In this document: positions 11,683 to 63,776 of the stretch, in pieces
Layout of the letters: every line of letters begins with the position of its first letter
Position numbering within the stretch: the stretch's first letter is position 1
Source of the DNA: Fulvivirga imtechensis AK7
GTDB lineage: Bacteria; Bacteroidota; Bacteroidia; Cytophagales; Cyclobacteriaceae
NCBI RefSeq assembly: GCF_000331535.1
Contig: NZ_AMZN01000024.1
Span: 1-64,000, forward strand
Length of the DNA: 64,000 bases
Reading direction: 5' to 3'
Notes under the pieces: model-generated
Database searches by the model: none
Told to the model about the DNA's origin: nothing
The model's input: the letters and a program-made list of their open reading frames with translations, nothing else
Position numbers and translations under genes: made by a program

Positions 11683-11828
11683 CTACTTAGTGTCTGTAAG
11701 AAAACGCCAATGTCTGCATTATGCTTGTCTCAAAAATGCTCTCGTACCTCGGTACGCTCCGCTTTTTGGGACTTCATCCCGCTCTTTAGCAGGAACGTCA
11801 CTCGGAGTTTTCTTACAAGCACTACTTA
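11683..11828 (+). mobile_element. MITE-like element, copy A, with 7-bp target duplication
   Basis: A 132-bp element (11690-11821) flanked by perfect direct repeats CTACTTA (11683-11689 and 11822-11828). It starts GTGTCTGTAAGAAAAC and ends GTTTTCTTACAAGCA; TGTAAGAAAAC at 11695-11705 is the exact reverse complement of 11807-11817. Inside are a CGTACC-TC-GGTACG hairpin and CAAAAATGC/GCTTTTTG arms. No reading frame is present. Copies B (51387-51525) and C (30781-30816) share both ends. This copy separates a kinase stop codon (7 bp away) from its downstream regulator gene in the same operon. Confidence 0.75.
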
Positions 11829-30773: not shown

Positions 30774-30823
30774 TTAGTTAGTGTCTCTAAAGTCACTTAG
30801 AGTTTTCTTACAAGCAGTAGTTA
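30774..30823 (+). mobile_element. MITE-like element, copy C, internally deleted
   Basis: A 36-bp remnant (30781-30816) that starts GTGTCTCTAA and ends GAGTTTTCTTACAAGCA, the same ends as copies A and B, with the middle missing. It is flanked by TTAGTTA (30774-30780) and GTAGTTA (30817-30823), matching in six of seven bases. It sits 16 bp after the stop of the thioredoxin-like gene. Confidence 0.65.
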
Positions 30824-51156: not shown

Positions 51157-51240
51157 AGAATTTTTCTCACAGACTATTTGTATAGTGAAGTAGTGTTTGT
51201 AAAATAACAAAAGTAAATATTAAGCTAAAGAACGATAGAT

Positions 51241-51379: not shown

Positions 51380-51532
51380 CTATTTAGTGTCTCTAAGAAA
51401 ACGCCAATGTCTGCGCTAGCTCGTTCCAAAAATGCTTACGTACCCCAGTACACTCCGCTTTTTGGCACTTCACAAGCCTTGACCTGAACGTTTTCTTAAA
51501 GCCACTTAGAGTTTTCTTACAACCATTATTTA
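51380..51532 (+). mobile_element. MITE-like element, copy B
   Basis: A 139-bp element (51387-51525) with the same ends and inner order as copy A: GTGTCTCTAAGAAAACGCCAATGTCTGC at the start (first part 51387-51414), then AAAAATGCTTACGTAC, GCTTTTTGGC and GAGTTTTCTTACAACCA at the end. It is flanked by CTATTTA (51380-51386) and TTATTTA (51526-51532), matching in six of seven bases. It has no reading frame. Confidence 0.75.
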
Positions 51533-51557: not shown

Positions 51558-51935
51558 ATGAACGTTAAGGGTAAAATATTAGAAATTTCAGACACGCAGC
51601 AGGTGTCAAACAGTTTTAAGAAAAGAGAATTTGTACTGGAGTATGCAGAAAACCCTCAATATCCTGAGTATTTAAAGTTTGAATTGATCCAGGATAAATG
51701 TTCTGTTTTAGATAGTTATAAGGCAAATGACGAAGTGGATGTATACTTTAACCTGAAGGGAAGAAAATGGACCGACCCCAAAGGCGAAGTAAAATATTTC
51801 AACTCGCTCCAGGCCTGGAAAATTGAAGGAGCCGGCAATGCCCAATCTGCACCACCACCTTCAACAGATAATGGTATGGATCAAATGGAAGAACCAGGAT
51901 GGGTCAGCGAAGGCGATGATGATCTGCCTTTTTAA
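51558..51935 (+). CDS. DUF3127 protein with SSB-like C-terminal tail
   Basis: A 125-residue protein of the Bacteroidota DUF3127 family, with an OB-fold-like core (MNVKGKILEISDTQQV, FVLEYAENPQYPEYLKFEL, DEVDVYFNLKGRKW). A flexible linker follows and the protein ends EGDDDLPF. That ending closely resembles the conserved acidic tail of single-stranded DNA-binding protein (DDDIPF in E. coli SSB), which recruits repair and replication proteins. A role at single-stranded DNA is therefore suggested. A strong terminator follows at 51962-51992. Confidence 0.85.
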   Translation: MNVKGKILEISDTQQVSNSFKKREFVLEYAENPQYPEYLKFELIQDKCSVLDSYKANDEVDVYFNLKGRKWTDPKGEVKYFNSLQAWKIEGAGNAQSAPPPSTDNGMDQMEEPGWVSEGDDDLPF

Positions 51936-63197: not shown

Positions 63198-63776
63198 TCA
63201 AATTTCGTCATAAAGTGTCTCTAACTTCTTTCGTAGCGCCAGCACAGCATACCGTTTTCTGGAAATCAGTGTATTTACCGGTATATTATACTGCTCAGAC
63301 AGCTCTTTAAAGCTCCTATCCTCTAATTCATGCTGAATAAAGATATCACGCTGGTCTGCAGGTAATTCGCCTAAAGCAGCAGTCACCGCCTCCCAAATGA
63401 TGTCGCGAAAATGCATGTCTTCGGGAGTCTGCCCCAGGTCTGGAAGTATATCACTGAGCATCAATGGTTCTTCGCCATCATCTGCTGCCTGAACAAAAGA
63501 CATTTGATTGGACCTCACCTTCTGCTTGCGATACGAATCAACAATTTTATTACGCGCCACTCTGAAAAGCCATGCAGTGGCCTTCTCGATCGAACCAATA
63601 GTATCATAAGCATCGACAAACTGGAAGAACACATCCTGCAATATATCCTCGGCATCTTCCGTATTATTTACCCGCGTACGGATAAAATTAAGAAGTCGTC
63701 CTTTTTCCCGCTTTATGGTTTCTTCCTGCCTTTCTGCCATGGATAAAGTTAATGATATAGTTGCTTCGTGTGTCAT
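63198..63776 (-). CDS. ECF-type RNA polymerase sigma factor
   Basis: A 192-residue sigma-70 family factor of the ECF type. Region 2 is read in NTEDAEDILQDVFFQFVDAY and ATAWLFRVARNKIVDSYRKQK. Region 4 is read in LPADQRDIFIQHELEDRSFKELSEQYNIPVNTLISRKRYA. The ATG at 63776 (MTHEATIS) is chosen; a longer version from a TTG at 63848 would run through the upstream control region. No classic anti-sigma gene is adjacent, although the small membrane protein downstream could serve that role. Confidence 0.92.
   Translation of the reverse strand: MTHEATISLTLSMAERQEETIKREKGRLLNFIRTRVNNTEDAEDILQDVFFQFVDAYDTIGSIEKATAWLFRVARNKIVDSYRKQKVRSNQMSFVQAADDGEEPLMLSDILPDLGQTPEDMHFRDIIWEAVTAALGELPADQRDIFIQHELEDRSFKELSEQYNIPVNTLISRKRYAVLALRKKLETLYDEI

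Follow-up and report, generated by a model that had tools for sequence, protein, structure and literature searches.

A MITE family with TAnnTA target duplications in Fulvivirga imtechensis AK7, and a candidate IS5-family transposase

Background

A 64,000-bp stretch of the Fulvivirga imtechensis AK7 genome (hereafter, the window) contains three short sequences, A, B, and C, which share their ends and lie between matching AT-rich boxes. Are these copies of a mobile element that duplicates its target, and if so, which transposase would have moved them? A sequence-only reading of the window had proposed a MITE-like family with target duplications. Its three copies and shared ends are as it described, except that each right limit was placed one base too short. 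Its target box, TAnTTA, holds for A, B, and C and is too narrow for the wider set of copies studied here, in which the box is TAnnTA.

Methods

The window corresponds to bases 1-64000 of contig C24 of the draft genome (assembly G000; 6.74 Mb, 225 contigs). Copies were bounded by a script that required at least 40 bp, so that copy C is in neither of the two sets used for the flanks. The loose set contains 91 copies; 26 of them, with an end-mismatch sum above 4 or a length above 165, were left out of the tight set. In the shuffles, right flanks were re-paired at random, and the target preference was thereby kept. IS5-type elements were bounded by an inverted-repeat search; in the plasmid collection, four loci were opened from 174 records, and in relatives, 14 loci were attempted. 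ISMae6 and ISAcma17 were placed in NF033578 by the labels of the plasmid hits.

Results

The two end patterns have three exact matches each within the window, one per copy (Table 1). By direct reading, copies A and B are near full length, and copy C, which retains only its ends, is a deletion remnant. In each of the three, the terminal inverted repeats are imperfect and the two 6-bp flanks are identical, and the agreement of the flanks within each copy was thus read correctly. Most of the right-end inner motif is missing from copy A, which is 11 bases short of the consensus. In A, B, and C, the right flank is preceded by a base identical to the variable one of the box; this was set aside as chance (11/65 in the wider set). 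The sequence TTACCTTTGC, just upstream of copy B, fits the Bacteroidota -7 box, TAnnTTTG; thus, copy B may lie in the leader of the gene starting at 51558. Isolated weak left-end matches in the window at 51187-51202 and 63209-63224 (three mismatches each) are possibly decayed ends.

Table 1. Positions of the three copies in the window and of a second MITE-like family in the genome
Feature	Sequence	Position	Strand	Basis
Copy A, left target duplication TACTTA	window	11684..11689	.	sequence
Copy A, element, 133 bp	window	11690..11822	+	sequence + consensus
Copy A, left terminal inverted repeat GTGTCTGTAAGAAAAC	window	11690..11705	+	sequence
Copy A, interior hairpin: outer stem ending GTC..GAC, inner stem CGTAC/GTACG	window	11727..11772	.	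consensus fold
Copy A, right terminal inverted repeat GTTTTCTTACAAGCAC	window	11807..11822	-	sequence + pattern match
Copy A, right target duplication TACTTA	window	11823..11828	.	sequence
Copy C, left target duplication TAGTTA	window	30775..30780	.	sequence
Copy C, 37-bp remnant: both ends kept, interior gone	window	30781..30817	+	sequence
Copy C, right target duplication TAGTTA	window	30818..30823	.	sequence
Copy B, left target duplication TATTTA	window	51381..51386	.	sequence
Copy B, element, 140 bp; ATG at 51558 lies 31 bp downstream	window	51387..51526	+	sequence
Copy B, right-end inner motif GTTTTCTTAAAGCCAC	window	51490..51505	-	sequence + pattern match
Copy B, right terminal inverted repeat GTTTTCTTACAACCAT	window	51511..51526	-	sequence + pattern match
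Copy B, right target duplication TATTTA	window	51527..51532	.	sequence
Second family, copy	G000	C55:18040-18251
Second family, copy	G000	C14:88689-89003
Second family, copy	G000	C24:85648-85962
Second family, copy	G000	C24:91674-91987
Second family, copy	G000	C6:185868-186182
Second family, copy	G000	C6:249581-249890
Second family, copy	G000	one more on C55

The genome-wide search for the ends, which the sequence-only reading had advised, found many dispersed copies. The element as query gave at least 55 matching stretches (best 40 of 340 candidates scored). Allowing up to two mismatches, the right-end pattern, to which the inner motif conforms as well, matched 425 times and its backward control 43 times; there were 92 matches to the exact pattern TANNTAGTGTCTCTAAGAAAAC and 144 to the pattern TANNTAGTGYCTSTNNGAAAA, each against a control of 0. 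In 774,414 bp from four contigs, we found 37 copies by the loose rule and 24 by the tight rule, from which the genome total is estimated at roughly 200-320 copies.

The consensus from 56 copies has 156 bases including the duplications (mean identity 0.82). The element is about 144 bp long and non-coding, with 16-bp imperfect terminal inverted repeats, the left end being GTGTCTcTAAGAAAACGCC and the right end, read inward, GTGttTgTAAGAAAACTCTAAGTGgCTTTAAGAAAAC; most of the 65 tight copies span 117-165 bp, without a transposase gene. At the right end, the end motif is present twice, 21 bp apart. L018 is the sole copy bounded at the inner motif, where its duplication (TAAATA) is exact; either the transposase took the inner motif as the end, or the outer unit was lost when CACT repeats slipped by 21 bp. 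In L033, the right end is intact and the left end resembles the inner motif. L047 and L057 (contigs C101 and C4) have similar ends enclosing a different interior of the CGTCATCGGTAACGAAG repeat type, with flanks that are not identical; thus, the ends rather than the interior seem to be what moves.

None of the 24 tight copies is inside an ORF of at least 120 aa, though ORFs of this length make up 84-87% of the stretches; the ORFs were picked by a simple script and are not annotated genes. A few of these copies, whose flanks are unrelated, may have wrong boundaries. Eight of the 24 lie between convergent ORFs, and 12 (counted from the table of copies) have an ORF stop codon within 13 bp. The copies may lie between genes and beside stop codons because TAnnTA sites containing TAA or TAG are frequent and harmless in such places.

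Two other repeats were seen in the same genome. A second MITE-like family, with ends CCATAGCCGTTAACTTAAG / CTTAAGTTAACGGCTATGG and a length of 212-315 bp, has seven copies in the stretches (Table 1). Five of them have exact duplications of 8-9 bp, which by eye lie within inverted repeats; two copies are inserted in the CCCTTTGG hairpin of the TAnnTA MITE. A third repeat, ending ATATCGAACTCACGTTA, was found at L003, L011, L021, and L056 and at places on contigs C6, C55, and C14. Some copies of the TAnnTA MITE are inserted at its border, which provides TAATTA or TAAATA. The end ACGTGAGTTCGATATAAA of the third repeat resembles the end of Porphyromonas gingivalis MITE239 as given in Table 2 of PMC4596501.

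Did the flanks arise by duplication of the target? Three agreeing variable bases are by themselves poor evidence; the wider set is strong. In the tight set, which is not a random sample but pools search hits and the stretches of four contigs, 33 of 65 copies have the same 6 bases on both sides (re-paired mean 6.6, maximum 14 in 5000 shuffles), and in 49 the two flanks agree at 5 or more bases (mean 28.7, maximum 39). Where TAATTA stands on neither side, 21/43 pairs are identical (mean 3.1, maximum 10), and 34 pairs are exact in the looser set of 91 (mean 6.1, maximum 15 in 2000 shuffles). This supports the argument made from the window, that the agreement comes from target duplication and not from constant ends. 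Mismatched flanks at other copies had been named as evidence against duplication; although 32/65 pairs are inexact, matches are far above the shuffles. The targets seen on both sides are TAATTA, TAAATA, TATTTA, TACTTA, TAACTA, TAGTTA, TAAGTA, TAGCTA, GAAGTA, and GAATTA; non-consensus duplications are present (GAAGTA/GAAGTA and TAGCTA/TAGCTA). When the left flank is not palindromic (n = 47), the right flank is identical in 20 copies and reverse complementary in 0; therefore, base pairing is not the reason for the agreement. Exact duplications occur in 12/22 copies with at least 0.90 identity to the consensus and in 17/34 below; consensus-like copies are no more often exactly duplicated, which we count against our best explanation. 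Drift of 4% across the 12 bases alone would leave about 60% exact.

In 14 genomes of the same genus, the whole element had no match at E<=0.001; among the 58 genomes searched, it matched only in its own genome, G028, and G017. At the sites orthologous to A and B, the element is absent from G014, a genome of the same genus, so that the empty sites looked for do exist: 547 query bases of the joined A flanks align on 531 bases (67% identity) and 428 bases of the joined B flanks on 425 (78% identity), both across the join without an element-sized insertion. Among the matches listed, the B join is also spanned in G001, G008, and G011 with 30-35 left-flank bases and in G003 and G007 with merely about 10; no other same-genus match listed reaches a join. 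In G001, the distance between the two matches flanking the A join equals that in the joined query to within 17 bases in either direction. Presence at the same place in distant relatives had been proposed as a point against mobility; at the sites tested, the element is absent from the relatives. The inverted ends, the dispersed copies, the lack of room for a transposase gene, the identity of the flanks, and the element-free orthologous sites together support the MITE reading.

The ends are abundant in the own genome and rare elsewhere. The pattern TANNTAGTGYCTSTNNGAAAA occurs in 12 of 390 genomes of the bacterial family, with 45 matches in G028 and 1 to 5 in each of ten others beside those of the own genome (backward control, 2 matches in total), and among 390 genomes of the order, the own genome alone has the exact pattern TANNTAGTGTCTCTAAGAAAAC. 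G013, of the same genus, has one end-pattern match, which is counted against our best explanation. In G028, a looser pattern gave 82 matches (control, 0), and a cousin MITE with ends GTGTCTGTCCATAAAG has a related interior. The plasmid and phage collections contained no match to the whole element, and the plasmid collection contained none to the G028 cousin or to long ends from G028 and G837. A lone viral contig with the end pattern has, by eye, one end within 650 bases.

The interior hairpin has a tip of the form 5' TGCTCA - CGTAC - N4 - GTACG - CTCCGC 3' with an asymmetric TCA/CTCC internal loop. It recurs, varied, in the cousin MITE of another genus, viral contigs, Agrobacterium, Aeromonas, Klebsiella, Salmonella (between ffh and rpsP), and Escherichia coli (between pheM and pheS); the loci with the tip are window 11727-11772, L278-L281, L313, L314, and L316-L322. 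In the own stretches, 7/7 strict tip matches are near MITE ends (backward control, 0). The strict tip matched four viral contigs and a looser tip six, against one for the backward pattern; by their surroundings, the viral contigs form two groups. Nine records of the plasmid collection, some chromosome-sized, gave weak tip matches (E 0.004 to 0.5). With a composite query of 49 bases, similar places turned up in 5375/5426 E. coli genomes (median 4 per genome); the two places opened were both between pheM and pheS. The E. coli tip differs in the bases flanking the loop. Of nine tip-bearing sequences folded, seven take the same shape, the exceptions being Salmonella L317 and the G028 cousin. In that cousin, the outer stem changes from C-G to A-T twice and the inner stem from G-C to T-A once, and one inner pair is lost; we read this as a hairpin kept in part through paired changes.

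Rfam gave no match to the element at E<=1 (a single weak hit lies elsewhere in L012) and nothing at the gathering score for six loci with the shared hairpin; sub-threshold hits lie over the hairpin in L317 (AaHKsRNA22, E 0.005) and L318 (sX9, E 0.2). Among the literature matches listed for the tip letters, none was on the subject by title, and the available parts of PMC4666352 and PMC2267715 did not identify the tip. The shared tip may come from common descent or from convergence on a stable hairpin. That the MITE is a vehicle spreading a conserved regulatory or processing hairpin to gene leaders and tails is a doubtful proposal; should the hairpin prove functional, a conserved structure would be spread along with the family.

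Which transposase, then, would move the family? No match to NF033578, PF21804, or PF12762, the three transposase families searched, was found in the own assembly, and NF033578 is also missing from G028, the other of the two end-richest of the 390 genomes. A full-length element with a transposase and the same ends, which the sequence-only reading had hoped for, was looked for and not found. In 774 kb of own sequence, three end pairs with equal flanks are 300-5000 bp apart; two of them are MITE copies with a nested insertion, and the third spans 4.9 kb with long ORFs that by eye resemble ABC-transporter and regulator genes, not a transposase. As no NF033578 gene is in the draft assembly, the family would either be a relic or depend on a transposase copy that was not assembled. 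MITEs without an autonomous partner in the genome are usual for relics; this weakens a claim of present activity and not the assignment to the kind.

Elements of the ISMae6/ISAcma17 type elsewhere show the same target rule. Exact 6-bp duplications were found at three of the four plasmid loci (L205, TAGTTA; L206, TAATTA; L208, TATTTA), L207 having no 6-bp TAnnTA duplication, and at three of six loci above the cut-off in relatives (L209, TAGTTA; L210, TAAATA; L211, TAATTA). Among the 14 loci attempted in relatives, L225, below the cut-off, has a TAAATA duplication with other ends, the L219 flanks agree at 5/6 bases and those of L217 and L218 at 4/6, and the remaining seven gave no bounded pair. 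L212 has no 6-bp TAnnTA duplication. The ends GTGTCTGTAAGAAAAC and GGGTCTGCTGAAAAAC agree by eye at 11/16 positions, similar and not the same, and the right ends of both the MITE and the IS5-type elements run on as AAAACTC. In three genomes of one genus (G921, G962, G970), an IS5-type element has a GTGCCTGTAAGAAAAC end by TAAATA and a GGG end by TACTTA. This mixed-end GTG/GGG junction (L217, L218) may be accidental, because the flanks are equal at only 4/6 bases and the transposase is without the first 77 profile positions.

Discussion

The shared TAnnTA rule and the related ends make the NF033578 group the best candidate, and we think it probable that the family was moved in trans by an IS5-family transposase of this ISMae6/ISAcma17 type (NCBIfam NF033578). 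Such an enzyme would act on the ends of the non-coding elements and cut the TAnnTA target with a 6-base stagger, whose repair would leave the 6-bp direct duplication. Since no complete element with exactly these ends was found, we infer the IS5 identity of the enzyme, as we do the cut-and-join chemistry.

Less probably, yet as a serious alternative, the same MITE would have ends that belong to another transposase family, the draft genomes lacking the bodies of its elements. Contigs of G028, which has no NF033578 match, break about 90-280 bp inside GTGCCTGTTTGAAAAGG, GTGCCTGTACGAAAAG, GTGCCTGTCCGAAAAC, and GTGTCTCTTAGAAAACACC ends, and five contigs of G837 break at the same distance inside GTGCCTCTTAGAAAACACCC ends, as collapsed multi-copy elements would; the NF033578 element that G837 does have (L211) has GGG ends. 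Against this, 6-bp TAnnTA duplications and similar ends are already known from an IS5 group.

It is very improbable that the ends belong to PF21804 (Transposase_29) elements. A PF21804 fragment adjoins one of these ends in G028 (L136), and a PF21804-related gene starts inside another end (L100); however, the similarity of L100 to L140 begins near TTCAGAAC, a place at which its sister copies, L084 and L102, are different, and its PF21804-related sequence can be read as a nested insertion. Of the 15 of 28 PF21804 loci whose surroundings were viewed, 14 extend as far as a ..(T/C)CTGA end, and those whose upstream sequence is long enough begin TTCAG.., not GTG; across all 28, GTG-type ends occur only at L148 (the L136 place) and, weakly, at L163. 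PF21804 was rejected as the partner on its absence from the own genome and on these ends. A gene with a DruA domain (PF14236) adjoins a complete PF21804 transposase at L143 (2531-3166), on the Chlorobiaceae MAG record that L164 also comes from.

Immobile structured intergenic repeats (terminators or RNA), whose AT-rich flanks agree through preference only, would account for the strong hairpins, the intergenic position, the many copies beside stop codons, and the tip recurring in unrelated genomes; we give this reading hardly any credence, as it is contradicted by flank identity far above the preference-keeping shuffles, by flanks that are never reverse complementary, and by the element-free orthologous sites. 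An IS1595-family element is the least credible source of the transposase and was rejected: G017 has a broken IS1595 gene within about 1 kb of its single GTG end (L062), but no second end was found in 9 kb of sequence there, and the own genome has no PF12762 match.

Our searches of the literature on MITEs in Cyclobacteriaceae and in Bacteroidetes (the latter judged by title) found no description of this family. It is a new sequence family of a well-known kind, the MITE: an ordinary type of element, whose landing-site rule is unusual and whose helper enzyme was not found in the assembly. An estimated 200-320 traceable insertions, a clear TAnnTA rule, and element-free relatives provide material for dating a MITE burst, and the same genome is useful for finding the transposase behind the family. 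The doubled right-end motif, together with L018 bounded at the inner one, gives a testable prediction on how the transposase reads the right end.

Among known systems, REP/BIME repeats with RAYT transposases are likewise small palindromic intergenic repeats; unlike the present MITE, they are not known to make a target duplication. According to the available parts of PMC11448079, the 187-nt MITE of Microcystis is also small, dispersed, and stem-loop-forming, and is thought to be moved in trans, but it matches the ISL3 family and has 8-nt duplications. The P. gingivalis MITE239, MITE700, MITE464, and BrickBuilt are Bacteroidota MITEs whose ends match IS5-family elements, and BrickBuilt is intergenic; their end sequences are different, and in the available parts of PMC4596501 their full-length partners share the genomes. 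The ISMae6 and ISAcma17 elements of the IS5 family (NF033578) are autonomous, about 1.6-1.7 kb long, with ends that start GGG instead of GTG, and are absent here; nevertheless, they resemble the present family in their 6-bp TAnnTA duplications, their related ends, and, in the copies of relatives, the AAAACTC continuation of the right end.
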